A stretch of DNA of 64,000 bases, from the NCBI RefSeq assembly GCF_023516715.1, contig NZ_JAMGSI010000001.1:1426001-1490000 (forward strand). Reading direction: 5' to 3'. Both the position numbers and the translations under genes were made by a program. Source of the DNA: Akkermansia massiliensis (GTDB lineage Bacteria; Verrucomicrobiota; Verrucomicrobiia; Verrucomicrobiales; Akkermansiaceae). Shown piece by piece: positions 2,544 to 40,065 of this stretch; the stretch's first letter is position 1; every line of letters begins with the position of its first letter. The notes beneath the pieces were generated by a model. That model saw only the letters and a list, made by a program, of their open reading frames with translations. It was not told where the DNA came from and did not search any database.

Positions 2544-2552
2544 AGGTTGGGG

Positions 2553-3834: not shown

Positions 3835-3840
3835 AGTGAG

Positions 3841-4134: not shown

Positions 4135-4163
4135 GTTTACGAAATATGTAATACGAAAAGTGT

Positions 4164-4379: not shown

Positions 4380-4402
4380 CAACTTCAACCCCAAATACGA
4401 AA

Positions 4403-4600: not shown

Positions 4601-4605
4601 TAATC

Positions 4606-4884
4606 ATGACCGCGCCACTTACTGACAAGGACTGGGATGCCGTAAGCCCGGAGTTAAAGGTCCTGTGCCTGCTGCGTCTGCTGCGCCGTCCCGCTGTAAG
4701 GAAATGGGCGGCGCGTGAATTCGGTTTCCCTCCATCCGGTTCCCTCACCCAGCGGCAACTGGCCGCCTGGTGCGGCGTGGATGAATCCACTATCAGCCGA
4801 TGGGAACGGGACGCCATCATTAAAATGCGTGGAGCCGCCAGACGATGTGGCCTCACACAAGAAATTTCACAATACAAACACTAA
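4606..4884 (+). CDS. small helix-turn-helix protein of the early operon
   Basis: 92 residues. The C-terminal half contains a sigma-like or MerR-like helix-turn-helix (LTQRQLAAWCGVDESTISRW), followed by a basic stretch (RGAARRCGL). The N-terminus is helical (LKVLCLLRLLRRPAVRKW). It follows the membrane protein by five bases and ends six bases before the next start. A regulator of the phage early region is the reasonable reading; the target is unknown. Confidence 0.55.
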   Translation: MTAPLTDKDWDAVSPELKVLCLLRLLRRPAVRKWAAREFGFPPSGSLTQRQLAAWCGVDESTISRWERDAIIKMRGAARRCGLTQEISQYKH

Positions 4885-4889
4885 AAAAT

Positions 4890-5612: not shown

Positions 5613-5624
5613 CTTTACGCGACT

Positions 5625-6296: not shown

Positions 6297-6582
6297 TTTA
6301 CCCATCATAGAACGGCAAATCCGTCTTAGGGCGGCCTATCGTTCCCTACGCCATAGTATCTACAGTGACCGTGAATTGTCCCGTATGGAATGGGAGCGTG
6401 ATTGCTGCCGCTATCCCCTGCGCGGCTATTTCAGGCAAAGAATGTACGAGAACATTAAAGCAGCCTGGTTCCTACGTAGCATCAGCAGGGGGACGTACCG
6501 CATCATCATGCGGAGTCAAAACGCATCTTGGGATGATGCCACCATCAACCTCGGCAAGGGCAAATGCCATTTTTCTAAATAA
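6289..6582 (+). CDS. small basic protein that ends with a transposase-like catalytic motif
   Basis: 97 residues, very basic, from ATG at 6289, which overlaps the previous stop. Most of the protein is helical and arginine-rich (LRAAYRSLRHSIYSDRELSR). The last 20 residues include ASWDDATIN followed by LG. The transposase encoded 18 bases downstream has the same nine residues at its first catalytic aspartate. The nucleotide sequences also match over this stretch with silent differences, so this is an old duplication rather than a recent one. Function is unknown. Confidence 0.5.
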   Translation: MIDLPIIERQIRLRAAYRSLRHSIYSDRELSRMEWERDCCRYPLRGYFRQRMYENIKAAWFLRSISRGTYRIIMRSQNASWDDATINLGKGKCHFSK

Positions 6583-6600
6583 TTCCTGATTCAATTTATC

Positions 6601-8238
6601 ATGGCAATACTTCCAGACCATTCTTTCAACGCCTTTTCCGCAGGCCGTTCCGGGCGACCTCGGAAAGTGGAACTGACGGAGGAACAGAAAAAAGAACTGG
6701 CAGCCCTCTACCTGGCGACCAACGCCACCAGGAAAAGCGGCAGCATGACGCTGGCGTGGTCCATTTTTGCCAGCCAACACCCGGAACTTGGATGGGATGC
6801 CGCAGCCAAATCCAGCAAGCACATCATTCCAGCAGTGGCGCGGGATGTTATGAAACATGCCCGGCCCATGGTTGGATACCATCGTGGAGGAGAACGCAAA
6901 TTAAGGGAATTAGCCTATTCCCCAGGACTCCTCCGCCGCAACCTGGACGGAGGACTGCTGCGAGCCGGACAACGCGCGTCCTGGGACGACGCCACCATTA
7001 ACTTTGGCGTGTGCGTCCCATGGCCTTGGAGGGGAAGCGGCGACAAGTGTGCTGAAAAATATGGCGTGCGCCTGGGACGCTTCCAACTTTTGGTCTGCCA
7101 TGACGACGCCACCAGCTTCATTCCCGCCTACTCTTATATTATCAGATACGAGCAAACCTACCGCGGGGAGGACGTGGCCGGATCCATGATACGCACCTGC
7201 CGGGACGTAGGCATTTTTGATTCCTTCGTATTGGAAGGAGGCGTCTGGAAAAGCGACCGTGTCCAGCGGTTGCTGGACGGCTTAGGCATCCGCCACATTG
7301 ACGCGAAAGGAAGACCCCAATGTAAATTAGTAGAAAACTTCTTCAATCGTCTCTGGTCCGTCCTCTCGGTGGTGCCCGGCCAGGTTGGCCGCTACCAGGC
7401 GGAAAACAAATCAACCAGCGAAAAATACGTCGCCTGCCGCAACGGACGCCAGGACCCGCGCACCCTTTTTCCCATGCTCACGGACGCCCTGGCCGCCATT
7501 GACTGGGCCATTAACTACCTCAATACACATCCGGTGGAATCCCGCGAGTACGGCAAGTGGATTCCCCGCGACCGTTGGGAGGCGGACCTTGCGGCGCATC
7601 CCATGCGCCAAGTGGATGCCGATTTCTCCTGGTTGCAGGCTCCGGCCATCGTGAAGCGCAAAGTGGTCAGGGGAATGCTCCGGGCTACCGTCCCCGGCCC
7701 TCTGGGGGTGCCGCAACGCTGGACCTTCAGCGCGCCGTGGCTCTGGACCGAAGAAGGAAAGGAACTCATGCTCCACTTTGACCCCTTGGGCGAATGGCCG
7801 CTTTCCGCCGTCGTGACGGCTCCGGGAAGCGTCAAAGTCCTGGGAGAAGTCTCCTGCACCAATCCGGTCAGCATGGGTGGATGTGGCGAAGACATTTCCC
7901 TTCAAATCCGCCAGATTGTTCGCACGGAATATCGCCTTTTGACTGCTACAGGAAAAACGGGCCGGGAATCCACCCTCCGCGCCCTCAACGGTCAAACCTC
8001 TATTGCCCAGGGCGTCAAAGGACAGGACGGCGACGTCACCGCGGACACTCCGCCGGACGCTGTCCAGGTTCCCGCTAAGGTGCGCGCTTCCAAGCTGGCA
8101 GACCCTCTTTCCCGCGCCGCGGCAGAGGACAGCCGCTCCACTGTTCCCCAACCAATCACCCCCGCCACGCGGGACGACTTCGCCGCCATGCGCCGCCGCG
8201 CCCGGCAGGCAAACACAGCAACCACCCTCAACTTCTAA
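6601..8238 (+). CDS. MuA-like DDE transposase/integrase
   Basis: 545 residues; catalyses phage DNA strand transfer during integration and replication. Residues about 1-110 are a helical DNA-binding region. The RNase H-like core follows: first acidic motif WDDATINF (D129/D130), a second strand block LLVCHDDATSFIPAYSY (162-179), then VLEGGVWKS with E212 where the second catalytic aspartate is expected. The third motif is KLVENFF with E245, 33 residues on, the classic D-D35-E spacing. A beta-barrel domain and a lysine/arginine-rich tail complete the protein. MuB follows after six bases. The glutamate at the second position is odd and may define a subfamily. Confidence 0.85.
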   Translation: MAILPDHSFNAFSAGRSGRPRKVELTEEQKKELAALYLATNATRKSGSMTLAWSIFASQHPELGWDAAAKSSKHIIPAVARDVMKHARPMVGYHRGGERKLRELAYSPGLLRRNLDGGLLRAGQRASWDDATINFGVCVPWPWRGSGDKCAEKYGVRLGRFQLLVCHDDATSFIPAYSYIIRYEQTYRGEDVAGSMIRTCRDVGIFDSFVLEGGVWKSDRVQRLLDGLGIRHIDAKGRPQCKLVENFFNRLWSVLSVVPGQVGRYQAENKSTSEKYVACRNGRQDPRTLFPMLTDALAAIDWAINYLNTHPVESREYGKWIPRDRWEADLAAHPMRQVDADFSWLQAPAIVKRKVVRGMLRATVPGPLGVPQRWTFSAPWLWTEEGKELMLHFDPLGEWPLSAVVTAPGSVKVLGEVSCTNPVSMGGCGEDISLQIRQIVRTEYRLLTATGKTGRESTLRALNGQTSIAQGVKGQDGDVTADTPPDAVQVPAKVRASKLADPLSRAAAEDSRSTVPQPITPATRDDFAAMRRRARQANTATTLNF

Positions 8239-8244
8239 AAAATC

Positions 8245-9192
8245 ATGAACAAATACGAATTATCAACACATCCGGACGTTGGCAGCCTGGCGGACAGGCA
8301 AGCCAGCCTCCACCTCAATGACCAGGACTTCTGCCGCCGTGTAGGGTTCTCACTGGCCGCATCCTCCTGGGGTAAAATCAAGGCCGGCACCTGGTCCGGC
8401 AATTGCGACAATGCCCTGGTGGCCGTCCAGCAGGCCCTTGCCTCCGGTGACGACCAGCCAGCCGCGCCCGTCGTGGATGGGGACACCGTTCTTCTTCCTC
8501 ATATCTCCCTGGCCGTGGACGCCGTAGAAGCGGCCTCCTGCACCAAAGACGAGCATCGGTTGGTTTTCATCGTCGGAAAAACAGGTTCCGGCAAATCCAA
8601 GACGGCGGCCTATCTGGCCTCCAGATTCAACGGAGCTATCATCAACGCGGCCCCGGCTTGGGAAAAAAGTTACCTGCACGCCCTGGCCTCCATCGGCGCG
8701 GGGCTGGGCATCGGCAACTCCTGGCGGTCTGCGGGCGACGCGGAACGCTCCATCATTCAAGCCCTCCAGACAGCCCCGCGCCTCATCATCATTGACGAGG
8801 CCAACCACTTCAACAGGGCAACTCTCAACTTCCTGAAAACCGTCCTCAACCTGACGCGGTGCGGCTTGGTCCTGCTGACCCTCCCGGACCATATGGCCCG
8901 CATGTCTGCGGACAGCCGCGAAGAATTCCCCCAGCTCCTGCGACGCAGCATCGCCATCATCCATATCCCCAGCATCACTGGGGAGGAAGTATCTGCCATT
9001 CAGCGCGGACTATTCCCGCAAATGGATATCCGCAACACCTCCCCCATTTGCGCCCTTGCCAACCAGTTCTACAACCTGGACACCGTCCGTCGCGTGCTGG
9101 AAGAAATCGACGCCGGACAAACGCCGGACGCCGCCGTCAAGGCGGTGCGCCGCCAAATTCAGGCCATCACTCCAACCCAATCCCTCAACTAG
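8245..9192 (+). CDS. MuB-like AAA+ ATPase, transposition target-capture protein
   Basis: 315 residues. Walker A is FIVGKTGSGKS (108-118) and Walker B LIIIDEANHF (180-189), with a sensor-like LVLLTLPDHM downstream. This is the layout of the MuB/TniB family, which binds target DNA and activates the transposase. The N-terminal 80 residues hold an HTH-like region (DQDFCRRVGFSLAASSWGKIKAG), as in MuB. Six bases separate it from the transposase gene. Confidence 0.85.
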   Translation: MNKYELSTHPDVGSLADRQASLHLNDQDFCRRVGFSLAASSWGKIKAGTWSGNCDNALVAVQQALASGDDQPAAPVVDGDTVLLPHISLAVDAVEAASCTKDEHRLVFIVGKTGSGKSKTAAYLASRFNGAIINAAPAWEKSYLHALASIGAGLGIGNSWRSAGDAERSIIQALQTAPRLIIIDEANHFNRATLNFLKTVLNLTRCGLVLLTLPDHMARMSADSREEFPQLLRRSIAIIHIPSITGEEVSAIQRGLFPQMDIRNTSPICALANQFYNLDTVRRVLEEIDAGQTPDAAVKAVRRQIQAITPTQSLN

Positions 9193-9193
9193 C

Positions 9194-9454
9194 ATGACCG
9201 CTCCCGCCACCATTGAAACGGAAACCGCCGCGCAATTCATCAGCATGGCTCTCTCCACTTATGGAGTGCCGTTCCAGGTACTTTCTCCGACTCCTTACCC
9301 CGACAAAATCGGCATCCGTCTGCACCCAGAAGAGCAATACTGTATCGTCCACGCGGAAGCTTTCCTGGCCTGGATGTCCACCACACGGCCATCCCTTGAC
9401 AAACTCCGCGCCACTCTCGACAAAAAAATCAAACTAAACCGTCGTCATGTCTAA
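9194..9454 (+). CDS. small phage protein of unknown function
   Basis: 86 residues, starting two bases after the MuB-like stop. The composition is ordinary for a soluble alpha/beta protein (TYGVPFQVLSPTPYPDKIGI, then a helical basic tail). No motif or family is recognised. Its end overlaps the next gene by eight bases, so it belongs to the same translationally coupled string. Confidence 0.5.
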   Translation: MTAPATIETETAAQFISMALSTYGVPFQVLSPTPYPDKIGIRLHPEEQYCIVHAEAFLAWMSTTRPSLDKLRATLDKKIKLNRRHV

Positions 9455-9677
9455 CTGGACCGTAACCGTCCGCAGGAAGAACGAGATGAAGCCCACCCAC
9501 CATCTCTGGCTTAACAGGAACATATGGTGGCTGGTCATCTCCCTATATAATAAGGAAACACGCAAAACGATGCGGCACCGTCAAAGTCTCCGGACGGAGG
9601 ACCAGGCCGTCGCCATCAAACGGCGGGACAAAGTTCTGCAGGCTCTCTATGCCGCCTACGGAAAGGAAGAAAAATAA
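9447..9677 (+). CDS. small basic phage protein of unknown function
   Basis: 76 residues, strongly basic, with WTVTVRRKNEMKPTHHLWLN at the start and a helical C-terminus (AVAIKRRDKVLQALYAAYG). It overlaps the previous gene by eight bases and ends one base before the MuF-like start. Nucleic-acid binding is possible from charge alone. No family is recognised. Confidence 0.5.
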   Translation: MSNWTVTVRRKNEMKPTHHLWLNRNIWWLVISLYNKETRKTMRHRQSLRTEDQAVAIKRRDKVLQALYAAYGKEEK

Positions 9678-9678
9678 T

Positions 9679-11568
9679 ATGGTCAGAGAGCCGGAAGCCA
9701 TGCCCTTTTGGGAAGCCCTATCCCTCTTGGAAGGGAAAGAAGCCGTCGCCTCCGCCATGACCACGGCGGAATGGCGGCGCATGCCCGTGGCTGTCCGGCT
9801 CAAATCTCAATTTTCCGCCACGCTCACTTCCGTAAAAGCCGCCAAGGCCATCACGGATTACCTGACGGGCTATGTCCGCGGAGACAAGGCCGTCAATGAC
9901 CTCGGCCAAGAATACCAAGTGTATCAAGGCCGGGCGGAATTCGTGGCCCAAATGAGGGACATCATGATCGAGGAGGGCTTCGGCAAAGTTCTTCATGACG
10001 GGACGTTGGACCCGGAAATTCATGACAACGACCTCCGGGACCTGCGCGGCTGCCGCCGCCTTCAACTCATCTTTGACACCCAGACGGAGCAGGCCGCCTC
10101 CTACGCCCAATGGCAGGAGGGACAGGACCCGGACATTCTGGACATCTTCCCCTGTCAAAAATTCGTCCGCGTCCGTCCGGTTCACACGCCGCGCCCTTAC
10201 CATGATGCCGCTATTGGCACCATCCGCCGCAAGGATGACCTGGCCTTCTGGGTTTCCCTCAATCGGGATTTTCAAGTTCCATGGGGGCCTTGGGGCTTCA
10301 ACTCCGGCTGCGGTGTGGAGGACGTGGACCGCGACGAGGCAGAGGCGGAAGGCGTCATCAAGCCGACAGACAAGGTCCAGCCAATCGCCAAAGACTTTTT
10401 GGAAGGTCTGAACGAATCCATCCGTGGCCTGGATGACCAGGCGCGCCGCTATATTCAAGCCCAGCTTGATAATCAGGTCCGCTTCCTGGGTGATTCCGCG
10501 TTTTTCAACCCCAAGGACCAGCCGCTGCCCGTTGACCCGGCACAGATCCCGCCCGTGCGTCCGGCCAAAACTCCGGAGCAAATCGACGCCCAGAAAAAGC
10601 GCATTGGAGAAACCATTGCCGCTCGCCAGCAGCGGCAGGCAGACCAGCGCGCCGCCGTGGAAAAAACAGCCAAGGAAGACTTCCGCGCCCGCAGGGACGC
10701 CGCCCTTGGACCTCTCCGGGAACACAGGGACAGCTTGCTCCAGCAAGTGGCGCAAGACAAATCTATTGAGTCCTGGATGGCTTATAGAGCCGCGGATGAA
10801 GCTTACATCAAAGCGGCGAAATCCTGGAATCCCGGAGGCATGCTTCACAAAGCCATGATTAAGGACATTGCCCAGCGTCAAGCAAAACTATGGGACAAGA
10901 CCTATCGCGACTCCCTCCGCTTCCTAGGCACGGAAGGCATGCTTGTGCCTAAAGACAAGCGAGGCATGATTGCCCCGTCCTCCGTCATCATTGACTCACA
11001 TCTACGCATCAAGGCAGACAAGCCGCGCAAACTCTCCCCCAACATCCGCAAGGGGCTGGACCTCGTTACATCCATTGTCCCGGCAGACAAGCTCCCTTCC
11101 GGGCTGGGCCTGCAAATCGTCAAAAACAACAGTCTCCGCGCTTTCCAACTGGACGGAAATATTAAAATATCCGACCAGCACGCCCCGTCTGTCGTCGCTC
11201 ACGAGCTGGCCCATGCCATCGAATTTTCCAACCCTGACGTTCTCCGTAAATCCGCAGCTTTCCTGTACGACCGCGGGGAGGGGATGCCTGCAAAATCCTT
11301 ATCCAAACTTGAACCGGGAGTTAAATACAAATCCGTGGAAAAAGCCCTGGAAGACAAATGGAAGGAACGGGGAGGACGGGCTTATATTGGCAAAGTTTAC
11401 GTAAGGGGCTATCATTCGGAAATGAAAAGGGAGGACTTTGTGGCAAACGTCCAAGGCTCTGAAATCCTGTCCATGGGAATTCAACGCCTACTGGAAGACC
11501 CCGTCAGATTCCGCCAGCAGGACCCGGACTATTTTAACTTCATTAAATCCCAATTAAGCCGCATATGA
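9679..11568 (+). CDS. MuF-type minor head protein fused to a C-terminal zincin metallopeptidase-like domain
   Basis: 629 residues from ATG at 9679, preceded by GGAAG. Residues about 60-240 carry the MuF/SPP1 gp7 signature: RRLQLIFDTQTEQAASYAQW, RVRPVHTPRPYHDAA and WGFNSGCGVEDVD. A charged coiled coil (about 285-400) follows. The C-terminal domain has VVAHELAHAIEF with the zinc-binding HELAH at 508-512 and a likely third ligand in GSEILSM (E595). MuF proteins sit at the portal, and many carry C-terminal enzymatic or toxin domains that are delivered or act in the virion. Here the gene follows the transposition genes instead of the terminase, an unusual place. The next gene overlaps by four bases. 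Confidence 0.78.
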   Translation: MVREPEAMPFWEALSLLEGKEAVASAMTTAEWRRMPVAVRLKSQFSATLTSVKAAKAITDYLTGYVRGDKAVNDLGQEYQVYQGRAEFVAQMRDIMIEEGFGKVLHDGTLDPEIHDNDLRDLRGCRRLQLIFDTQTEQAASYAQWQEGQDPDILDIFPCQKFVRVRPVHTPRPYHDAAIGTIRRKDDLAFWVSLNRDFQVPWGPWGFNSGCGVEDVDRDEAEAEGVIKPTDKVQPIAKDFLEGLNESIRGLDDQARRYIQAQLDNQVRFLGDSAFFNPKDQPLPVDPAQIPPVRPAKTPEQIDAQKKRIGETIAARQQRQADQRAAVEKTAKEDFRARRDAALGPLREHRDSLLQQVAQDKSIESWMAYRAADEAYIKAAKSWNPGGMLHKAMIKDIAQRQAKLWDKTYRDSLRFLGTEGMLVPKDKRGMIAPSSVIIDSHLRIKADKPRKLSPNIRKGLDLVTSIVPADKLPSGLGLQIVKNNSLRAFQLDGNIKISDQHAPSVVAHELAHAIEFSNPDVLRKSAAFLYDRGEGMPAKSLSKLEPGVKYKSVEKALEDKWKERGGRAYIGKVYVRGYHSEMKREDFVANVQGSEILSMGIQRLLEDPVRFRQQDPDYFNFIKSQLSRI

Positions 11569-11864
11569 TGTATCTTACGAAATCCCAGATGGATAAAATG
11601 GATGCTCTTTTTGACGCCCAGGAACTCCCGGACACGTTTCCCGAAGACATGGAATATGCCTTCATGGACTTGCTCGCTCCGGAAATGACCCTGGAACGTT
11701 ATCTTGCCATGCCGGAGCAGGAGCGGAAGAAATGGTGGATTAACTGTGACACCCAGCCCGCAGCACCTACGGGATTCACGGACCCGGAAAACGGAGAAGA
11801 AATCTACGCCACCCACTACTACTTTGAGCCTGCCAGTCCGGAAATCCTCGACCGAATTTATTAA
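11565..11864 (+). CDS. small acidic protein coupled to the MuF-zincin gene (candidate immunity or inhibitor)
   Basis: 99 residues, acidic, with no signal peptide or membrane segment (LTKSQMDKMDALFDAQELPD at the start). The ATG overlaps the stop of the MuF-zincin gene in an ATGA junction, so the two are made together. A small acidic partner directly after a MuF fusion with an enzymatic tail is the usual setting of an immunity protein. That assignment is inference from context, since no family is recognised. Confidence 0.5.
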   Translation: MMYLTKSQMDKMDALFDAQELPDTFPEDMEYAFMDLLAPEMTLERYLAMPEQERKKWWINCDTQPAAPTGFTDPENGEEIYATHYYFEPASPEILDRIY

Positions 11865-11865
11865 T

Positions 11866-12231
11866 ATGAAAAAAGCAAAACAACTCGAACTTCCTATTGC
11901 CTATCCTGAAAGCGGACGCTGGTTCGTTCCGGTCCGGCAATATAAAATAGACGAAAGGACCTATGCCCTCCGCATGGGCAAGCCTGTCCAGTTGGGCACC
12001 TCCTACGAAATATCCCGTGAGTTCCGCGTTGGCCGCCGTGTTCTGGCACGTCTGGCTGATGCTGGATTCATCGAACGTCTTCGTCCCACTCCATTCATGA
12101 GCATGTACTACTATGCCGACGTGGCTTCTTTTTTGGAACGCACGCGCCAAGACCCCAATTTCTGGACGGAAGCGCGTCGGGAGGCTTATCTGAACGGAGA
12201 AAATCCAGAAGAGGCTTCCATTATTCATTAG
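11866..12231 (+). CDS. small winged-helix-like phage protein
   Basis: 121 residues from ATG at 11866, one base after the previous stop. The central part (LGTSYEISREFRVGRRVLAR and LADAGFIERLRP) looks like a helix-turn-helix with a wing, a common layout for a small DNA-binding regulator or head-joining factor. The C-terminus is helical and charged. It is the last gene before a strong terminator, so the rightward early transcript probably ends here. Confidence 0.45.
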   Translation: MKKAKQLELPIAYPESGRWFVPVRQYKIDERTYALRMGKPVQLGTSYEISREFRVGRRVLARLADAGFIERLRPTPFMSMYYYADVASFLERTRQDPNFWTEARREAYLNGENPEEASIIH

Positions 12232-12247
12232 AGGCACGGAGATTATC

Positions 12248-12283
12248 CAGGGCGAGCCGTACAAGGCCGCCCTGTTTTTTTTT
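12248..12283 (+). terminator. intrinsic terminator ending the rightward phage operon
   Basis: CAGGGCG pairs with CGCCCTG around a 13-base loop, followed by nine T. The loop contains GCCGTACAAGG, also present in the leftward terminator at 2927-2958. The methyltransferase gene beyond it needs its own promoter, and TATACT at about 12,284-12,289 is a candidate -10 element. Confidence 0.85.
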
Positions 12284-12297
12284 ATATACTCCGCCGC

Positions 12298-13017
12298 ATG
12301 TTCACCAACTCCCCTATTATCTGCGGTGATTCTCTTCCGGTCATGCGCGGTCTTCCGGACCAATCCTATGATGCTATCATCACTGACCCCCCTTATGCTT
12401 CCGGAGGATTGACGACCGCGGAGCGCAAGACTTCCCCGGCACGCAAATACATTTCATCCGCCAAATATCTTTCTTTCGAGTCGGATACACGGGACCAGCG
12501 TTCCCATTTCCTCTGGTCTGTCATGTGGATGCAGGAGGCTTTCAGGCTCACCCGCCACAGCGGCTGGTTCATGTGCTTTACAGACTGGCGGCAATTGCCG
12601 ACAACCAGTGATGCCTTGCAGGTGGCAGGCTGGACTTGGCGTGCCCTCGTCACGTGGGACAAGACGGAGGCTTGCCGCCCGCATCAGGGTATGTTCCGCA
12701 ACCAATCGGAGTTCATCTTGATTGCTACACGCGGGAGCATTGGCAAAGAGCAGGACCGCCCGCGCGTCTTTCCGGCTGGCGTCTGGCGGGAATACCTCCG
12801 CCCAGGGGACAAGATGCACCTCACAGGCAAGCCCGTCAATCTTATGACCCATCTCATGAGCGTTCTTCCTGCGGATTCCTGCCTTCTGGACCCCTTTGCC
12901 GGGTCTGGCACTACTCTTCTCGCTGCCCGGCAACTGGGCCACACGGCCCACGGCATTGAGCTTTCCCCTGACTATGCCCGTATCGCCAGAGACAGGCTGG
13001 CAGCACCCGCCAACTAG
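12298..13017 (+). CDS. phage DNA methyltransferase (N4-cytosine/N6-adenine type, beta-group motif order)
   Basis: 239 residues. Motif IV TDPPYASGG lies near residue 23 and motif I LDPFAGSGTT near residue 200, the order of beta-group amino-methyltransferases. The SAM-binding glycine loop and the catalytic DPPY are intact. No separate target-recognition domain or restriction enzyme gene is visible, so an orphan methylase protecting phage DNA is the likely role. It lies between the terminator and the phage end, an isolated cargo-type position. Confidence 0.85.
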   Translation: MFTNSPIICGDSLPVMRGLPDQSYDAIITDPPYASGGLTTAERKTSPARKYISSAKYLSFESDTRDQRSHFLWSVMWMQEAFRLTRHSGWFMCFTDWRQLPTTSDALQVAGWTWRALVTWDKTEACRPHQGMFRNQSEFILIATRGSIGKEQDRPRVFPAGVWREYLRPGDKMHLTGKPVNLMTHLMSVLPADSCLLDPFAGSGTTLLAARQLGHTAHGIELSPDYARIARDRLAAPAN

Positions 13018-13082
13018 CCGCGGAGACTCCGCGGACGCCTCGCCACTCCGCGCGGAGAGCGACCCAGAGAGCGTGGAGAGGG

Positions 13083-13098
13083 TGTCCCACATGGGACA
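13083..13098. promoter_or_regulatory. third operator-type palindrome, at the prophage right end
   Basis: The arms TGTCCCA and TGGGACA pair perfectly around CA. Length and outer TGT/ACA bases match the two operators at 3750 and 3819, 9.3 kb away. It lies just inside the terminal repeat cluster, where repressor binding could also interfere with transposase binding. Confidence 0.5.
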
Positions 13099-13099
13099 A

Positions 13100-13258
13100 A
13101 TGACCCTTTCAGAATTTCAGGTTTCACCCTTTCAGGGAATTATGTGTGTAAATGCTCCCGTGACCCTTTCGTCTCCCCTCAACAACCTAGTAATTTCAAG
13201 GCTTTTCAACCTTCTTCAACCAATTTCCACCCTTTTCAACTATTTATGCTTGGTCACA
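13100..13258. repeat. prophage right end with MuA-type binding repeats
   Basis: Four imperfect copies of a TSACCCTTTCA motif lie at about 13,100, 13,123, 13,160 and 13,227, all in the same orientation. Three short CTTTTCAAC-like repeats lie between 13,201 and 13,241. Mu-family ends carry several transposase sites of this sort and terminate in CA; the last CA pairs are at 13,256 and 13,258. Beyond this the sequence is the coding sequence of a host exported protein. Confidence 0.7.
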
Positions 13259-28163: not shown

Positions 28164-28469
28164 GCTCCATGTTCTCATACCTGCCCCGCCTTCTGCAAGC
28201 AGCAAACTCCGGCCTGCGGCCTACCGGATTGGAAAGCCCCGGCACGGTACGGAATGGGGCGCTTCCTCCCTCTCTTTTCCGCCGGGATTTCTGCACCCCG
28301 GAATGCCCCGTCTTCCACCGCTTCCGCATCCGGAACCTGCATTTTTTCCAAGAGCAGGCGCAGGAACGGCCAAAAGGCGGTTTTTACCCGTCCACGCACA
28401 TTTTTTCCCAGTCTCCGGAAATTCGGCGGCGTTCTAATAAACATTGACAGTGACGGCTAAAAACGCCAT

Positions 28470-28660
28470 TAAACACGCCGAAGCAACGGGGAATTCCGTG
28501 AGAACCGGAAACAGTCGCGCTGCGGTATCGGGTTACAAACCCTCAAGGAACGCTTTTCCGCCAGCGTTCCGGTCAGCCAGTCCTCCCATTCCGGAGGGTG
28601 AAGGCGAGGGGGAGGTTGGAGACCCGGAGTCCGAATATCCTTGCTCCGGTTCACCATACC
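28470..28660 (+). ncRNA. cobalamin riboswitch
   Basis: The conserved core is visible: GGGGAATTCCGTGAGAACCGG, then a CAGTCGCGCTGCGG block, matching the class consensus of a GGGAA-CCGGTGAAAATCCGG core with an ACTG-CGCGC stem. A downstream CCAGTCCTCCC with a long pairing region and GGAGTCCGAATATCC completes the domain. It lies about 10 bases upstream of cbiK and should repress the corrin operon when adenosylcobalamin is high. Boundaries are approximate. Confidence 0.85.
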
Positions 28661-28670
28661 TTATCAACGC

Positions 28671-31580
<2,910 letters not shown>

Positions 31581-31586
31581 CTTCTC

Positions 31587-32249
31587 ATGACCTCTGAATT
31601 TAACATCCGCTGGGACATGCCCCCCGCCGCCATTGAGGCGGAAAGCTTTGCCGCCATTGAACGAGAGTTCCACGGCTGGGAAGAGCTGCCGCCTGCCGAA
31701 TGGAAGGTCATGCGGCGGCTCATCCACACCACGGCGGACCTTTCCATCGGCGAGGGGCTGGCGTTCCGCCATGATCCCATTCCCTCCGCCCTGGAGGCGC
31801 TCCGCAGGCACTGCCCCATCTTTTGCGATTCCAACATGATCCGCGCCGGACTTTCCGTGGAACGGCTGAGGCGCGCCCATCCCGGCTACGCACGGGAGGA
31901 CATCCACTGCCATATTTCCGATGCCGACATTGCGGAACAGGCCAAATCCACAGGCAGGACGCGCGCCATCTGCGCCGCGGAAAAAGCGCGCCCCATCCTG
32001 GACGGAGCCATCGTCCTCATCGGGAACGCTCCCCTTTCCCTGGCCCGCATCGCCCGGTACGCGCTGGAGGAAGGCATCAGGCCCGCCCTGATCGTAGGCA
32101 TGCCGGTGGGCTTCGTCAACGTCGTGGAATCCAAGCTGCTGACCGGGACGTGCCCCGTCCCGCAGATTGTCCTGGACGGGCGGCGCGGCGGGAGCGCCCT
32201 GGCCGTGACCACCCTGCACGCCATTCTGGAAAACCTGCCCGCCTCCTAA
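31587..32249 (+). CDS. cbiC: cobalt-precorrin-8 methylmutase CbiC
   Basis: 220 residues. Family motifs are RLIHTTADLS near residue 46, CDSNMIRAGLS near 80 and KLLTGTCPVPQIVLDGRRGG near the C-terminus. The catalytic histidine is the one in the IHTTAD block. CbiC moves a methyl group from C11 to C12, giving cobyrinic acid. It lies six bases after the membrane protein and on the same transcript. Length matches the family. Confidence 0.9.
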   Translation: MTSEFNIRWDMPPAAIEAESFAAIEREFHGWEELPPAEWKVMRRLIHTTADLSIGEGLAFRHDPIPSALEALRRHCPIFCDSNMIRAGLSVERLRRAHPGYAREDIHCHISDADIAEQAKSTGRTRAICAAEKARPILDGAIVLIGNAPLSLARIARYALEEGIRPALIVGMPVGFVNVVESKLLTGTCPVPQIVLDGRRGGSALAVTTLHAILENLPAS

Positions 32250-32282
32250 GTTTTCCGCATTCCAAAAAGCCGTCCCCCATCC

Positions 32283-33401
32283 ATGTCCGCCCCCCTCCGC
32301 CAGCCGCTCCGGAAAGGATTTTCCACAGGAGCCAATGCCGCCGCCGCCATCACGGCCGCATGGAAAACGCTGAACGGGGAAGAAATCAACGGACCGCTTC
32401 CCCTGCTTTTCCCGGACGGGGAGACGAGAACGCTTCCGCTGGCAGACTGCGCGCCGGGGTTCGCCCGCATCGTCAAGGACGGAGGGGACGACCCGGACTG
32501 CACCCATGGAGCCGTGCTGGAAGCGCGCGTAAGCGCAGCCGTGCCGGAGCAGGCCGCCCGGGAAGATTATCTCCTGCCCATTGGCCGGGCCCTCCTCATC
32601 CTGCGCTCCGGCGGAGGCATAGGCCTGTGCACGCTGCCGGGCCTGGACTGCGAGCAGCACAAATGGGCCATCAACCACGGACCGCGGCGCATGATTACGG
32701 ACAATCTGGCACGCGCCGGCATGCGGGAAGGGTGCTGGCTGGCGGAAATTTCCGTGCGGGACGGGGAAAAGCTCGCCGGGAAAACGCTCAATCCCCTGCT
32801 TGGCGTGGTGGGGGGCATCTCCATTCTGGGCACCAGCGGCATCGTTCGCCCGTACAGCCATGAAGCCTACATCGCCACCATCCGCATCTGCGTGCGCTCT
32901 ACCCGGCTTTCCGGCTTCAGGAAGGCCGTGTTCTGCACCGGGGGCCGCACCGCCGCGCTGGCGAAGACCCTCCTGCCGGAATACCCCTCCATTTCCTTCA
33001 TCTGCATTGGGGATTTCATTGCGGAAAGCCTCCAGAGCGCAGGTGAACAGGGCATGACGGAAGCCGTAGTGGCCTGCATGCCGGGCAAGCTCTGCAAGTA
33101 CGCCGCCGGATTTGCCAACACCCACGCCCACAAGGTGGCCCAGGACATGCCGCTCTTTCTCCGCACGGCGGAACGCCATGCGCCGCTTTCCGGGGAAGCG
33201 CGCCGGGGCATCCTGGCCTGTTCTTCCGTCCGCCAGGCGCTCTCCCTGACGCCGGAAGAGGCCCACCTTTCCATTTACCGCGACCTCGCCGCGGAAGCGC
33301 AGCGCCAGTTCCAGCGCCACGTGCCCGGCCTTCCCGTCCGTTTCCTGATTTCCGGCTTTTCCGGCAACCTCCTTCTCGACATACCTCCATGCCACCCCTG
33401 A
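32283..33401 (+). CDS. cbiD: cobalt-precorrin-5B C1-methyltransferase CbiD
   Basis: 372 residues. The start LRKGFSTGANAAAAITAAW is the CbiD signature, and CTLPGLDCEQHKWAINHGPR and GGISILGTSGIVRPYS are further hallmarks. The C-terminal part (GKLCKYAAGFANTHAHKVAQ) also matches. CbiD methylates C1 after ring contraction. The 3' end overlaps cbiET by 13 bases. Confidence 0.92.
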   Translation: MSAPLRQPLRKGFSTGANAAAAITAAWKTLNGEEINGPLPLLFPDGETRTLPLADCAPGFARIVKDGGDDPDCTHGAVLEARVSAAVPEQAAREDYLLPIGRALLILRSGGGIGLCTLPGLDCEQHKWAINHGPRRMITDNLARAGMREGCWLAEISVRDGEKLAGKTLNPLLGVVGGISILGTSGIVRPYSHEAYIATIRICVRSTRLSGFRKAVFCTGGRTAALAKTLLPEYPSISFICIGDFIAESLQSAGEQGMTEAVVACMPGKLCKYAAGFANTHAHKVAQDMPLFLRTAERHAPLSGEARRGILACSSVRQALSLTPEEAHLSIYRDLAAEAQRQFQRHVPGLPVRFLISGFSGNLLLDIPPCHP

Positions 33402-34606
33402 CTGTTTTTTCCTGCGGCACAGGCCCGCTTCAACCGTCCCCGGCCCTGCTTGGCAAACTGGCAGAGGCACAGAGCATTTACGCCTCCTCCGCCCTGCTGG
33501 AAGCCTGTCCCCCTTCCGACGCCCGGCGCATCCCCATCGGCAAAAACGCGCGGGAACAGGCGCGGGAAGCCCTGGAAGAAGCACGGCACGGCAACAACGT
33601 AGTGGTGCTGGCCTCCGGAGACGCCCTGTTCCACGGCATGGGCGGCACGCTCCAATCCCTGGCTTGTGACGGAGACCGGCTGGAATTCATCCCCGCCCCC
33701 ACGTCCTTCCAGGCCCTGTTCCACCGCCTGGGCATGGCGTGGGACCGCGCACGCTGCTTCAGCGCGCACAGCACGGAATATATTCCGTGGGGGGAAATTC
33801 TGGCCCAGCCGCTCGCCGTCATCTACGGAGGCCATCCCTTCACCGCCTGCCGCCTGGCCGCGGCGGCCATGGAGTTCCATCCGTCAGCGGCGGGGCGTTC
33901 CGCCGTGGCGGCCCAATGCCTGGGAATGGCTGACGAGCGCATTCTGCAAGGAACCCTGGCGGAGCTGGCCAGGGAGGAATGCTCCCCTACTTCCATGCTC
34001 CTGCTGCTGCCGGACAACCGCCCCGGAGCCGCGCCCGTCCTGCCTCTGGGACTGCCCGCGGATTTTTATGAAAAGGAGAACAACCTGATTACGGCGGAGG
34101 AAGTGAGGGCGGTCATCCTGTCCAAGCTGCGCCTTCCGGCCTGGGGGGTGCTGTGGGACGTGGGAGCCGGGAGCGGCTCCATCGGCCTGGAAGCCGCCGC
34201 CCTGCGCCCCGGACTTTCCGTGTACGGGCTGGAACGGCAGGCTGGCCGCCTGGAACTGATGCGCCGGAATTGCCGGCGCCTGGGCTGCGTGAATTACACC
34301 TGCATGCAGGGAGAAGCGCCGGAGGCCCTGGACGCGTTGCCCAAGCCCGACCGCATTTTCACGGGAGGAGGGGGCGCCGGGCTGGAATCCATCATGCAGG
34401 CCTGTTTTGACGCCCTGAACCCCGGCGGCCTTCTGGTAGCCTCCGCCGTAACCACGGAAAGCGAGCACCTGCTTTACGGCTGGAACGCCGCCGCACGCAC
34501 GGGGATGTTCTCCCTGGACATCGCCTCCGAATCTCCCATTGCCGGAACCTACCACCATCTGCGGCACGGCAACCGCATCACCCTTTTCACCTATTCCCGC
34601 GCATGA
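33389..34606 (+). CDS. fused precorrin-6Y methylase CbiE-CbiT (CobL-type)
   Basis: 405 residues. The N-terminal half is a TP-methylase (TVFSCGTGPLQPSPALLGKL, LASGDALFHGMGGTL), the CbiE part. From about residue 225 a class I SAM methyltransferase follows (WGVLWDVGAGSGSIGLEAAA), the CbiT part, ending after HLRHGNRITLFTY. The fusion adds methyls at C5 and C15 and decarboxylates the C12 acetate. It overlaps cbiD by 13 bases and the next gene by four, so the order is translationally coupled. Confidence 0.9.
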   Translation: MPPLTVFSCGTGPLQPSPALLGKLAEAQSIYASSALLEACPPSDARRIPIGKNAREQAREALEEARHGNNVVVLASGDALFHGMGGTLQSLACDGDRLEFIPAPTSFQALFHRLGMAWDRARCFSAHSTEYIPWGEILAQPLAVIYGGHPFTACRLAAAAMEFHPSAAGRSAVAAQCLGMADERILQGTLAELAREECSPTSMLLLLPDNRPGAAPVLPLGLPADFYEKENNLITAEEVRAVILSKLRLPAWGVLWDVGAGSGSIGLEAAALRPGLSVYGLERQAGRLELMRRNCRRLGCVNYTCMQGEAPEALDALPKPDRIFTGGGGAGLESIMQACFDALNPGGLLVASAVTTESEHLLYGWNAAARTGMFSLDIASESPIAGTYHHLRHGNRITLFTYSRA

Positions 34607-37221
34607 ATACCGCCCGTTTTCCCATCCATTTCATAGGAGCCGGCCCCGGAGCCGAAGACCTGATTACCGAACGAGGCGCCGCCCTCCTGAAGGAGGCCGA
34701 CGTAGTCGTGTATGCCGGGTCCCTGGTCAACCCGGCGCACCTCAAGCGCTGCCGCCCGGAGGCGGAACTTCATGACAGCGCCAGAATGAACCTGAAGGAA
34801 CAGGTGGAAGTGATGGCCCGGGGCGTGCTGGAAGGGAAAAAAGTGGTGCGCCTCCACACGGGGGACCCCTCCATGTACGGAGCCGTCGCGGAGCAATTCG
34901 ACCTGCTTGACAAGAAGGGCATTGAATCCATCGTGGTGCCGGGAGTCAGCAGCGTTTTTGCGGCGGCGGCGGCCCTGCGCACGGAACTGACCTATCCGGG
35001 ACTCGCCCAGAGCCTGGTGCTGACGCGCACCCCGGGAAGAACGCCCATGCCCTCCGGGGAGGCCTGCGAGGCCTTTGCCAAGACGGGCGCCACGCTGGCG
35101 TTCTTCCTCAGCGCGGGCAAGCTGGACGAACTGGCCGCACGGCTGGTCTCCGCCGGGAAATCCCCCGATACGGCGGCGGCGGTGGTGTACCGCGCCACCT
35201 GGCCGGATGAAAAAATCATCCGCGGCACGCTGTCCACCATTGCGGCGGAAACGGCGCGGGCGGGCATCGGCAGGCAGGCCCTCATCCTGGTGGGTGACGC
35301 CATCGGCGCGCACGACTGCGGGCAGTCCCTGCTCTATCACGGCCAATTCAGCCACGGCTACCGGAATGAGAAGGAAGACGAACGGTTCGACGGAAGCTGC
35401 GCGTTTTACGCTTTCACGGAAAAAGGAGTCCGCAAGGCGCAGGAGATTTCCCAGTCCCTGGGGAAAACCGTTATCCATTCCGTAGGCAGGGCCGGGGAAA
35501 CGGAAGGTGTCAAGCGGGTTCCCCCGGAGGACTTCGACCCGTTGCTTGCCCGGCAGTGGAACCTGTTTGACGCGCACGTTTTCATCGGGGCCACGGGAAT
35601 TGCCGTCAGGAAAACGGCTCCCCTGCTCCGGGACAAGGCCACGGACCCGGCGGTAGTTTGCTGTTCGGAGTCCGGCTCCCACCTCATTCCCCTGCTTTCC
35701 GGCCACCTGGGCGGCGGCAACCGCCTGGCGCGCAGGCTGGCCCGCATCAGCGGCGGGGAGGCCGTCATCACCACCGCCACGGACACGCGGGGAATCACCG
35801 CCTTTGACGAAGCGGCAGCCAGGGAAAAGGCCTGCGTTCTCAACCCGGACGCCATCAAAACCCTGAATGCGGCCCTGCTTGCCGGAGACACCGTATCTTT
35901 TCACGGTCCGCAGGAAATCCACGAACGGTACTGGCGGGACTGTCCCCAGGTCATTCCGGCGCGGGCGGATGGAGCGGAAGCCGCGGAAAAACCGTACGTT
36001 CCCGCCGTCTATTGGGATGAAGAGCCCCCGGAATCTGCGGGGGGAGCTGCCGCCCTGCTTATTCAGTCATCCTCCTTCGTGCTTGGAATAGGCTGCAAAA
36101 AAGGAACGGAACCCGGGCTGCTGCAGCAATACGCGGAAGGCTTTCTTGCCCGGCAGGGAATCTCCCGGTCCCGTATCAAAGCCCTTGCCTCCTGCACGCT
36201 CAAGGAGCAGGAACCGGCCATCCTGGCCCTGGCCGCAACATGGAATGTGCCTTTCCATGTCTTTGAGCCAGCCGAGCTGGACGCGGTGGAAATTCCCACG
36301 CCGTCAGACGCCGTCTTTGAAAAAACGGGGACTCATTCCGTTTCCGAGGCTTCCGCCATTCTGGCCTCCGGGGGTAAAATCAGCACTCCTAAAACCGTTT
36401 GCGGCGGGAACGTCACGCTGGCCCTGGCAACGTGCCCTCACGGCAGCCGGAACAAGGCCCGTCAAGGAGCCGGAAATGTCATCGTCATCGGGCTGGGGTC
36501 CGGGTCTCCGGGCCAGCTTACGCCGGAAGCGGCGGCAGCCATGGAGCAATGCACCTGCATAGCCGGCTACACCAAATACCTGGATTTCATCCGGGAACGC
36601 ATCCACGGAAAAAAGATGATCCAGACCGGGATGATGGGGGAAGTGCCGCGGTGCACGGCCGCGCTGGAAGCGGCTCTGAACGGGGAAAATGTCTGCATGG
36701 TCTGCTCCGGTGACCCGGGCATCCTGGCCATGGCCGGGCTGCTCTACGAAATGAGGAAGGAAAACGAACGCTTTTCCCCGGTCCGCATTGAAGTGCTCCC
36801 GGGAATTACGGCGGCCAGCATTTCCGCCTCCGCGCTGGGGGCGCCCCTCCAGAACGGCTTCTGCCTGCTCAGCCTGTCCGACCTGCTGGTCCCTGCGGAG
36901 GAAATCCGTGCCAACCTGGAGCAAAGCGCCGGAACGGCGCTGCCCGTGGTCCTTTACAACCCCGCCGGACGCAAACGCCGCCATCTGCTGGAGGAGGCCC
37001 TGCGCATCTTCCGGAACCAACGCGGGGGGAAAACCCTCTGCGCCTACGTGAAGCACGCGGGGCGCCCGGCCCAACGGAAATGGGTGGGGACGCTGGACGA
37101 ATTCCCGCTGGAGGACGTGGACATGTCCACGCTGGTGCTTCTGGGAGGCCCCCGGACCATCAGGGACGGAGACGTCCTTTTTGAACGGAGAGGCTACGCC
37201 GACAAGTACGGAATATCCTGA
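34603..37221 (+). CDS. triple fusion CbiF-CbiG-CbiH
   Basis: 872 residues. Residues 1-250 are CbiF, cobalt-precorrin-4 C11-methyltransferase (IHFIGAGPGAEDLITERGAA, VVPGVSSVFAAAAALRTEL). Residues about 267-610 are CbiG, which opens the lactone and releases acetaldehyde (GATGIAVRKTAPLLRDKATD, LSGHLGGGNRLARRLA, VLGIGCKKGT). Residues about 625-872 are CbiH, precorrin-3B C17-methyltransferase/ring contraction (VIVIGLGSGSPGQLTPEAAA, VLPGITAASISASALGAP). Three consecutive steps around ring contraction in one chain would allow channelling. Two-way fusions are common; three-way is less so. Confidence 0.88.
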   Translation: MNTARFPIHFIGAGPGAEDLITERGAALLKEADVVVYAGSLVNPAHLKRCRPEAELHDSARMNLKEQVEVMARGVLEGKKVVRLHTGDPSMYGAVAEQFDLLDKKGIESIVVPGVSSVFAAAAALRTELTYPGLAQSLVLTRTPGRTPMPSGEACEAFAKTGATLAFFLSAGKLDELAARLVSAGKSPDTAAAVVYRATWPDEKIIRGTLSTIAAETARAGIGRQALILVGDAIGAHDCGQSLLYHGQFSHGYRNEKEDERFDGSCAFYAFTEKGVRKAQEISQSLGKTVIHSVGRAGETEGVKRVPPEDFDPLLARQWNLFDAHVFIGATGIAVRKTAPLLRDKATDPAVVCCSESGSHLIPLLSGHLGGGNRLARRLARISGGEAVITTATDTRGITAFDEAAAREKACVLNPDAIKTLNAALLAGDTVSFHGPQEIHERYWRDCPQVIPARADGAEAAEKPYVPAVYWDEEPPESAGGAAALLIQSSSFVLGIGCKKGTEPGLLQQYAEGFLARQGISRSRIKALASCTLKEQEPAILALAATWNVPFHVFEPAELDAVEIPTPSDAVFEKTGTHSVSEASAILASGGKISTPKTVCGGNVTLALATCPHGSRNKARQGAGNVIVIGLGSGSPGQLTPEAAAAMEQCTCIAGYTKYLDFIRERIHGKKMIQTGMMGEVPRCTAALEAALNGENVCMVCSGDPGILAMAGLLYEMRKENERFSPVRIEVLPGITAASISASALGAPLQNGFCLLSLSDLLVPAEEIRANLEQSAGTALPVVLYNPAGRKRRHLLEEALRIFRNQRGGKTLCAYVKHAGRPAQRKWVGTLDEFPLEDVDMSTLVLLGGPRTIRDGDVLFERRGYADKYGIS

Positions 37222-37264
37222 CCTGATCCGGAAAGACAGCATCCGCAGAATTTGCCTGTTTCCC

Positions 37265-39148
37265 ATGAATAAGCCTTTTCACGCCTTCTGCATCGCCTCC
37301 ACCCAGTCCGGGGGAGGCAAAACCACGGTATCCCTCGCCCTGATGGCGGCGCTCTCCGCCCGGGGATTACGCGTGCAGGCCTTCAAGTGCGGCCCGGACT
37401 ACATTGACCCCTCCTTCCACCGGCAGGCGACGGGATTGCCTTCCTTCAATCTGGATACGTGGATGATGGGGAAAAACGGAGTCCGTTCCCAATGGGCACG
37501 GCACGCCTCCTGCGCGGACATCGCCATCTGCGAGGGAGTCATGGGCCTCTTTGACGCCAGAACGCCTGAAAGCCTGGAAGGAAGCACGGCGGACTGCGCC
37601 CTCACGCTCGGCCTGCCCGTCCTGCTGGTGGTTCAGGCGCGCGGCATGGCGGGGTCCATTGCCGCCGTCGTCCGCGGCTTCTCCCAGCACCATCCCGGCC
37701 TGAACATAGCGGGAGTTATTGCCAACGGCGTGGGAAGCGCCGCGCACGCGGACCTTCTGCGCCGGGCGCTGGACCACCACAGGATGCCGCCGCTGGTGGC
37801 GGCGTTCCCCAAAAACGCGGAATGGACGCTCCCGGAACGGCAGCTGGGCCTGGTTCCCGCGGAAGAGGAAGCCCGGCAGCAATCCTGGTTCCTCCGGCTG
37901 GCGGCAGAGGCAGAAAAGCGCGTCAACTGGGAACTGCTGATGAACATCACGGAACGCAGACGTCCGGAACCGCTGAAAGTTCCCCTGCCGCCCGCCCCTC
38001 CCCGCGGGATTCTGGCCGTAGCCCGGGATAATGCCTTCTGTTTTTACTACGGGGACAACCTGGAACGGCTGAAGCAAACGGGCTGGGACATCACCTGCTT
38101 TTCTCCGCTGGAAGACACCGCCCTTCCGGAAGGAACCCAGGCCCTCTACCTGGGGGGCGGCTATCCGGAAACCTTCGCGGGCCGTCTGGAAAGCAATGAG
38201 GCCATGCGGAACGCCATCCTGGAATTTGCCAAGAACGGCGGAGAAATCTTTGCCGAATGCGGGGGATACATGTACCTTTGCAAGGAACTGGCGCTTCCGG
38301 ACGGGACAAGCAGGAACATGTGCGGAGTCATTGACGGAACGGCCCGGATGGGGGAAAAGCTCCGTTCCCTGGGATACCGGGAAGCCGTGATGGAAACGGG
38401 AGCCCCGTTCGGGCTGCCTTTCACCCGCATCCGCGGCCATGAATTCCATTGGTCCCGAATTGAACTGAACCGGCCCTACCCGCCCCTTTACACAGTGACG
38501 GACAAGAATGGAAACAAGAGCCGGGAAGGAGTGGCGGATGGGAACGTGAAGGCCGGCTACATCCACCTGTACTGGGGAACGGAAACCCCGGACCACCCGC
38601 AGGAGCCTCAGCCGGGGCTGGGGCGCGTCATCCTGCTCAACGGAGCCTCCAGCGCGGGGAAAAGCACGCTGGCCCGGACCCTGCACCGCCTCATGGAGGA
38701 GGACTCCATGATTTTTTCCATGGACGATTATCTGGCCATGAGCCGGGGAAGGCATGAAAACGCCCTGGACGCCGTCCGGGAAACCGGGCTCCCCTTCATC
38801 GAGTCCTTCCACGCCGCCATTGCAGAGGCCGCGCGGAAAGGCGCCCTGGTCATCGTGGACCACGTCATCGGCGAATCCCGCGCCTGGGTTCAAGACCTCC
38901 TGAACCGCCTGAGCGGCATTCCCCGCGCCCTCATCAAAGTGGACTGCCGGGAGGACATCCTGCTGGAACGCGAGCGGAACCGTACCGACCGGACTCCGGA
39001 CCCGGCCCATGCGGAGCGCCAATACGGATGCATTCACCAGAATTTCCCGCATGACTTCTCCATAGACACATCGGAAGCGACGCCCCGGGAATGCGCCCAG
39101 AAACTCATGGAACAACTTCCACCGGAATTCAGGGCGACGCAGGAATGA
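37265..39148 (+). CDS. cbiA: cobyrinate a,c-diamide synthase CbiA fused to a C-terminal P-loop kinase domain
   Basis: 627 residues from ATG at 37,265. The N-terminal part is CbiA: P-loop IASTQSGGGKTTVSL (10-24) and glutaminase triad region with C332 in IFAECGGYMYL and the LGGGYPETFAG stretch. It amidates the a and c carboxylates using glutamine and ATP. From residue 454 a second P-loop enzyme begins (RVILLNGASSAGKSTLARTL), with FSMDDYLAMS and IVDHVIGESR, resembling chloramphenicol phosphotransferase-like kinases. The kinase substrate is unknown; a corrinoid or side-chain alcohol fits the context. CbiA is normally about 450 residues. Confidence 0.88.
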   Translation: MNKPFHAFCIASTQSGGGKTTVSLALMAALSARGLRVQAFKCGPDYIDPSFHRQATGLPSFNLDTWMMGKNGVRSQWARHASCADIAICEGVMGLFDARTPESLEGSTADCALTLGLPVLLVVQARGMAGSIAAVVRGFSQHHPGLNIAGVIANGVGSAAHADLLRRALDHHRMPPLVAAFPKNAEWTLPERQLGLVPAEEEARQQSWFLRLAAEAEKRVNWELLMNITERRRPEPLKVPLPPAPPRGILAVARDNAFCFYYGDNLERLKQTGWDITCFSPLEDTALPEGTQALYLGGGYPETFAGRLESNEAMRNAILEFAKNGGEIFAECGGYMYLCKELALPDGTSRNMCGVIDGTARMGEKLRSLGYREAVMETGAPFGLPFTRIRGHEFHWSRIELNRPYPPLYTVTDKNGNKSREGVADGNVKAGYIHLYWGTETPDHPQEPQPGLGRVILLNGASSAGKSTLARTLHRLMEEDSMIFSMDDYLAMSRGRHENALDAVRETGLPFIESFHAAIAEAARKGALVIVDHVIGESRAWVQDLLNRLSGIPRALIKVDCREDILLERERNRTDRTPDPAHAERQYGCIHQNFPHDFSIDTSEATPRECAQKLMEQLPPEFRATQE

Positions 39149-39208: not shown

Positions 39209-39745
39209 TTAAAACTCAACATTCCTCTGAGCCTTGATTCCCTGCTGAAAGGCATGCCTGACGCATTCAATCCGGCTCACGGTATCGGCCACGGCGATCA
39301 TTTCCTCCGGAGCATCCCGGCCTGTCAGGACAACGACCTTTCCGGGGGTAATTTTTTTCAAAGCATCCACGACTTCCGCAACGGAAATGAAGCCGTAATT
39401 CAGGGGGTAAAAAATCTCGTCCAGAATCACGGTTCCCACGGACTCATCCGCCAGCTTCTCCCGGGCCACCCTCCACCCGTCCCGAGCGGCGGAAGCGTGG
39501 CGTTCACGGGACTCTTCATCCCTGGCGCGGCCCGTAAATCCGGCCCCGGAACACACCACCTCCGCATTCGGAAACTGCCGGAGAGCCACCACCTCCCCAT
39601 AGGAACCGTCGTGCTTGATAAACTGAATTACGGCCACTTTCCCACCATGCCCCAACGCGCGCAGGGCCATGCCGAAGGCGGAAGTCGTCTTTCCCTTGCC
39701 GGGCCCGGTCAGGACAAGAATGCGGGAGCCTTTCATGCCCGGCAT
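39209..39745 (-). CDS. cobO: corrinoid adenosyltransferase CobO/BtuR
   Basis: 178 residues from ATG at 39,745, preceded by AGGGG; a methionine at 39,736 is an alternative. The ATP-binding loop LVLTGPGKGKTTSAFGMALR is the CobO hallmark, and VIQFIKHDGSYGE, VILDEIFYPLNYGFI and VVVLTGRDAPEEMI also match. It transfers the adenosyl group of ATP to cobalt. It is convergent with the cbi operon and 60 bases from it, so it has its own promoter. Confidence 0.92.
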   Translation of the reverse strand: MPGMKGSRILVLTGPGKGKTTSAFGMALRALGHGGKVAVIQFIKHDGSYGEVVALRQFPNAEVVCSGAGFTGRARDEESRERHASAARDGWRVAREKLADESVGTVILDEIFYPLNYGFISVAEVVDALKKITPGKVVVLTGRDAPEEMIAVADTVSRIECVRHAFQQGIKAQRNVEF

Positions 39746-39977
39746 TATACAGCCCCTGAGAGTAATACCCAACCCAAATTCCCCTTGATTCCCGGCGTAA
39801 AATGCACTACCGGGCTCCGCATTCCCCTGCTGGTCAGGGAGAAAGCATCTCCACCGGCAGCACAAAATTTCATGAAGCACAGGCACTCATGCCATCTCCG
39901 CAAACCTGCGGGCAGACGTGAATAGGACTTTACAGAACCGCCCTCCTCACGGTAGCTTATGCCCGCGCTTGTTGCAT

Positions 39978-40065
39978 GGAGAGATGGCAGAGCGGTTTAA
40001 TGCAGCGGTCTTGAAAACCGCCGTGGGGCAACCCACCGTGGGTTCGAATCCCACTCTCTCCGCCA
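39978..40065 (+). tRNA. tRNA-Ser (anticodon UGA), CCA encoded
   Basis: GGAGAGA at 39,978-39,984 pairs with TCTCTCC at 40,055-40,061. The anticodon arm reads GCGGTCTTGAAAACCGC, placing TGA in the loop. A long variable arm (TGGGGCAACCCA region) marks a serine tRNA, and GGTTCGAATCC is the T arm. The discriminator G is followed by CCA. Confidence 0.95.

Follow-up and report, generated by a model that had tools for sequence, protein, structure and literature searches.

The last gene of a cbi operon in Akkermansia massiliensis, located in a 64,000-nucleotide stretch of the genome (hereafter the window), encodes CbiA joined to a kinase domain of the chloramphenicol phosphotransferase (CPT) family, and we consider it probable that this domain is a non-orthologous L-threonine kinase feeding CobD. 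Its role as a kinase of the corrinoid pathway is well supported, and threonine is favoured among the substrates that an earlier note on this DNA had offered. The L-threonine kinase reading is based on gene content, gene order and evolution, from which we infer catalysis and substrate. In broader terms, and with somewhat less assurance, it appears likely that such domains form an unassigned class of L-threonine kinases with the CPT fold, which in Akkermansia and gut Desulfovibrio would serve the assembly of the B12 nucleotide loop, mostly as CbiA fusions, often with translational coupling to CobD, and as a relict gene in the A. muciniphila type strain.

Results

The CbiA-CPT fusion and its operon

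The gene order is cbiK-cbiL-permease-cbiC-cbiD-cbiET-cbiFGH-cbiA::CPT, with the fusion as the last gene of the operon. The operon, the parts of the fusion and the right flank are as follows (window positions):

28432..28658, + strand: cobalamin riboswitch RF00174 at the operon head (cmscan 45.3 bits, gathering 31.5, E=3.6e-8)
28641..29636, + strand: cbiK, cobaltochelatase (ORF; orthologue and order kept in other Akkermansia; gene list in PMC6974653)
29638..30345, + strand: cbiL (ORF, conserved order)
30342..31580, + strand: putative (possibly cobalt) permease (ORF)
31587..32249, + strand: cbiC (ORF, conserved order)
32283..33401, + strand: cbiD (PF01888, E=7.7e-67)
33389..34606, + strand: cbiET fusion (ORF, conserved order)
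34603..37221, + strand: cbiFGH fusion (ORF, conserved order)
37265..38578, + strand: CbiA part, residues 1-438 (Walker A around residues 15-20, Cys332; NF002204, PF07685, PF01656)
38579..38614, + strand: linker, residues 439-450 (AlphaFold2 pLDDT under 50 at 441-450)
38615..39148, + strand: CPT-like kinase domain, residues 451-627, proposed L-threonine kinase (PF07931; AlphaFold2; 1qhs fold)
38642-38665, + strand: P-loop GASSAGKS, residues 460-467
38723-38725, + strand: invariant Asp487
39209..39886, - strand: cobO/btuR, corrinoid adenosyltransferase, convergent neighbour (NF004637, 185.5 bits, cut-off 185)
39978..40062, + strand: tRNA gene, conserved right flank (Rfam RF00005, synteny)

This is the operon described for vitamin B12-making Akkermansia (PMC6974653); there the permease is likened to a putative cobalt transporter, and the passages found on the operon make no mention of the extra kinase domain. 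Elsewhere in the window, positions 739-13100 likely hold a Mu-like prophage, whose ORFs, judged by reading, include a 545-aa transposase-like protein, an adjoining ATPase, and amidase-like and portal/MuF-like proteins.

The ORF 37265-39148 (+ strand) translates into 627 amino acids with no internal stop. Residues 7-437 match the NCBIfam model NF002204 with 485 bits (484.9; cut-off 254; E=1.9e-145), PF07685 and PF01656 (Pfam) match this part as well, and the Walker A motif and the glutaminase Cys332, which is invariant in 12 relatives, are in place, bearing out the claim of the earlier note that a full CbiA with intact Cys332 is present. The second complete P-loop enzyme that it had reported behind CbiA was also recovered: residues 453-618 match PF07931 (CPT) over profile positions 1-171 of 172 (E=9.8e-32, 110.6 bits, gathering cut-off 22). 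The fusion is real; since it recurs in other Akkermansia and in Desulfovibrionaceae, a sequencing artefact is excluded. The AlphaFold2 model of the full-length protein (pTM 0.64) is too weak for judging how the domains pack.

The kinase domain forms a separate clade of CPT-like proteins

The full-length PF07931 match is accompanied by the residues expected of the family: the P-loop GxSSxGK and the Asp after strand 2 are invariant in 45/45 aligned sequences, in cob-linked and other members alike. The P-loop, Asp487 and Arg569/573/576 are common to the cob-linked clade and other CPT-like proteins; the P-loop and the Asp and Arg of catalytic type are intact. The clade is recognized by His516, Gly536-Glu537, Trp541, His582, Arg585, Gln586 and His591, and a two-residue insert near 579 sets the cob-linked subfamily apart from CPT. 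In the tree, all 23 cob-linked domains group in a single clade (SH-aLRT 100), separate from 64 other CPT-like proteins that include the Streptomyces CPT. The domain scores 59.9 bits against the equivalog model of chloramphenicol phosphotransferase proper, NF033114, well below its cut-off of 250.

Modelled alone with AlphaFold2, the kinase domain reaches a pLDDT of 91, and its best match in the PDB is CPT 1qhs (Z 20.4, rmsd 2.3 over 165 residues), followed by APS kinases and O-phosphoseryl-tRNA kinase. The common fold does not settle the substrate of the domain. By PF07931 and the structure match it is a P-loop kinase and not a PduX-type GHMP kinase, and no match to PF02283 (CobU/CobP) was seen among the best 25 of 29 Pfam families for the fusion protein. 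CPT-family kinases are common outside B12 loci, which counts against the reading preferred here; a plasmid search gave two actinobacterial matches.

CobU is present and a PduX-type kinase was not found

The genome encodes CobU with an intact P-loop at C1:609775-610305, outside the window, in a locus of known arrangement that contains a cobD-cbiP fusion, cbiB, cobT, cobS, cbiR and cobU (compare PMC7733943). In the fusion of this locus, the CobD half spans residues 6-352 and CbiP follows directly, from residue 370; cobD-cbiP lies ~0.85 Mb from the CbiA-CPT fusion. GalK and IspE are the only GHMP-fold kinases of the genome, and a PduX-type kinase was not found. The GHMP kinases that were classified in the other tested genomes with a CPT domain are IspE, and none of these genomes has a further one left unexplained. 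Since CobU is present, cobinamide kinase is not lacking, and since a PduX was not found, the missing step is the phosphorylation of L-threonine, which gives the threonine phosphate on which CobD acts.

The earlier statement that no standard kinase is in the window is correct in that CobU is absent from it, but CobU occurs elsewhere in the same genome. The earlier note would have counted the presence of all standard kinases elsewhere, together with inactivity of the domain on substrates of the pathway, against a corrinoid role; what the genome holds is CobU, with a GHMP/PduX kinase absent, so that not all of the standard kinases are present elsewhere. Beside the cobU locus, a cobalamin riboswitch match (L026 8453-8600, - strand; 33.1 bits, gathering 31.5) lies just upstream of a 1319-aa autotransporter-like gene, an unusual target of B12 control.

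Co-occurrence with CbiB and CobD in Akkermansia

Across 51 Akkermansia genomes, the CPT domain and CbiB occur together in 15, neither is found in 36, and no genome has one without the other; these genomes are related, so that the pattern amounts to few independent events rather than 51. The set consists of a 40-genome sample of the genus, nine further CPT-positive genomes (all with CbiB) and two CPT-negative ones (no CbiB). Within the 40-genome sample, PF07931 and CbiB (PF03186) occur in the same six genomes, which are also those with matches of CobD strength (265 bits or more), and CbiD is found in only three of the six. In one genome (G173) the CPT domain is in pieces around a gap in the assembly. 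Weaker, ~790-aa CobD-like matches in CbiB-less Akkermansia were considered as a hidden CobD fusion and rejected, three of them being HisD-HisC fusions by sequence reading. Distant PF07931 matches in seven other Akkermansiaceae, all without CbiB, were taken as generic members of the family and left out of account.

The domain outlives the corrin-ring operon in MucT-type genomes

Three MucT-type genomes lack the region corresponding to window 28214-38620, with the entire cbi operon and CbiA except for a short remnant, and only the CPT domain (window 38621-39097) is left between conserved flanks. The left flank extends to 28214; the right one comprises the tRNA (~39898-40065), which directly follows the retained domain, and in G113 and G038 also the sequence from 60346 onwards. 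Short tails of the retained copies ('GVHLYRR', 'RFRLYWK') resemble the CbiA end 'GYIHLYW', which argues for a deletion rather than a late fusion. The retained domain is under purifying selection, with dN/dS of 0.26-0.31 among the MucT-type copies and 0.12-0.31 across all pairs. Since these genomes retain CbiB, and the domain has survived in them the loss of CbiA and of the corrin-ring operon, it should serve a separate function in the later steps of the pathway; the kinase domain is not tied to CbiA. The CbiR route of MucT keeps the linker (PMC7733943), so that the need of MucT for threonine phosphate is not obvious beyond the salvage of cobyric acid.

At the same site cobO (window 39209-39886) is also missing, its loss having gone with that of the cbi operon. 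Window 40065-60346 (~20 kb, including glycosyltransferase-like genes) has no counterpart at this site in the MucT-type loci L027 and L029.

The kinase gene overlaps cobD in two phyla

The stop of the kinase overlaps the start of cobD in 12/12 junctions measured, whether the kinase is fused or stands alone, and in either phylum. The overlap is 4 bp in seven (L031, L032, L103, L107, L117, L206, L207) and 11 bp in two (L104, L120); for the other three our script chose an upstream in-frame cobD start, and a later ATG (MKADAHGG) would restore 4 bp. A stand-alone kinase gene lies directly upstream of cobD-cbiP-cbiB in L031, L032 and L120, the last being the Akkermansiaceae member UBA7331 with its copy before cobD-cbiP, and the stand-alone gene of G028 and G139 has the 4-bp overlap with cobD-cbiP. 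In A. glycaniphila, cobD-cbiP and cbiB come directly after the CbiA-CPT fusion. A further stand-alone copy adjoins cobO (L030), and the copy in L110 lies between cbiET and cobT.

The scan of one genome per species also placed the CbiA-CPT fusion directly before cobD-cbiP in Desulfovibrionaceae, including Desulfovibrio piger. In this family a CobD-level match (240 bits or more) is found in 71/149 genomes and the kinase domain in seven of the 149, six of which are among the CobD-positive ones. The ~65 CobD-bearing genomes without the domain show that CobD does not require it and that another kinase is needed there; the CPT-like domain is one solution among several for genomes with CobD. In CPT-less Desulfovibrionaceae, the displaced kinase was not found when the ORFs immediately preceding cbiB or cobD were scanned; these encode MerR and LysR regulators, rRNA methylases and one protein without a match. 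This gap fits the general one in verified producers, since pduX and cobD are absent from most of their genomes (PMC6461909). Several gut Desulfovibrionaceae (L102, L106, L107, L206, L207) carry a B12 gene set of the Akkermansia type with the same fusions, some with cbiR, and this likeness suggests a transfer between the two phyla.

Discussion

Threonine is favoured as the substrate because CobU is present, a GHMP/PduX kinase is absent, the domain tracks CobD and CbiB, and its stop codon runs into the cobD start. The context agrees with L-threonine kinase (EC 2.7.1.177) in the co-occurrence and linkage with CobD/CbiB in genomes where PduX is lacking, but CobD also occurs without the domain. In the proposed mechanism, the domain would phosphorylate the side-chain hydroxyl of L-threonine with ATP, yielding L-threonine O-3-phosphate, which CobD would decarboxylate to (R)-1-amino-2-propanol O-2-phosphate. 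CbiB would join this product to adenosylcobyric acid to form AdoCbi-P, and CobU, CobT and CobS would then complete the cobamide. The ancestral gene order was probably cbiA > kinase > cobD-cbiP > cbiB, with overlapping genes, and the fusion may have arisen by the joining of the two adjacent genes, the kinase presumably taking no part in the CbiA reaction.

The strongest competitor, which we nevertheless regard as unlikely, is a kinase of (R)-1-amino-2-propanol or another amino alcohol, or one of broader specificity (serine or ethanolamine, for norcobamides). It would supply the substrate of CbiB and would also track CbiB; however, the domain is linked most closely to cobD, the gene of an enzyme that acts on threonine phosphate, and the cobD start is overlapped in every adjacent arrangement measured; an aminopropanol kinase would leave CobD idle. 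That the domain aids CbiA, for instance as a regulator or as an ATP-dependent partner when the a,c-diamide is formed, agrees with its fusion to CbiA in two phyla, but the domain exists without CbiA and CbiA without the domain (Desulfovibrionaceae L257-L259), which makes this very improbable. We give slightly less credence again to an extra cobinamide or corrinoid salvage kinase: the domain sits in corrinoid operons and is retained in salvaging strains, yet the genome already has CobU with its P-loop intact, CobU is found near cbiB or cobD in most relatives examined, and the CobU family is not among the best 25 of the 29 Pfam families matched. The presence of CobU led us to give up the cobinamide kinase reading. 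An antibiotic (chloramphenicol-type) kinase, or one for an unrelated substrate carried by chance, has the family name and the closest PDB fold in its favour and is the least credible, given the low equivalog score, the separate clade, the exact association with CbiB and the cobalamin riboswitch ahead of the operon. From the earlier list of substrates, the corrinoid-pathway kinase survives with threonine favoured by the cobD linkage, and cobinamide (CobU present) and aminopropanol (CobD would be left idle) are less likely.

The L-threonine kinase reading offers a specific candidate for the missing kinase in an important gut genus and in gut Desulfovibrio; if true, it would add a non-orthologous enzyme to the bacterial L-threonine kinases PduX and BluE, and would allow better predictions of B12 makers in the gut. 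It also gives a predicted function to a stand-alone gene of the type strain, a probiotic, and puts right a family label that misleadingly points to an antibiotic kinase. Our literature search found no paper joining chloramphenicol phosphotransferase with cobamide; the fusion is not thereby shown to be unreported.

With the CPT of Streptomyces venezuelae (PF07931, 1qhs/1qhx), the domain has in common the fold, the P-loop and the invariant Asp and Arg; it differs in its 25% identity, its other clade, its score below the CPT equivalog cut-off, its linkage to B12 genes, and the subfamily-specific H516, GE536-537, W541, H582, Q586, H591 and insert near 579. The cobinamide kinase CobU/CobP is also a P-loop kinase of the same pathway, but belongs to a separate family and is additionally present in the same genome. 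The CobD of Methanosarcina mazei, a bifunctional kinase/decarboxylase with the kinase within the CobD protein, likewise couples threonine kinase to CobD, whereas here the kinase lies upstream of CobD, CbiA-fused or separate, and the CobD half is followed by CbiP. PduX, the L-threonine kinase of Salmonella (EC 2.7.1.177), has the same proposed reaction and pathway position, but is a GHMP-fold kinase, in contrast to the P-loop kinase described here. BluE, the L-threonine kinase of Rhodobacterales, is likewise a non-orthologous replacement of PduX (PMC6249242, PMC8123684), again with the same proposed reaction. The domain would therefore take the place of PduX or BluE, its fold being unrelated to theirs or at most a distant relative: the kind of reaction is known, and the enzyme family and its arrangement are new as far as the searched literature shows.
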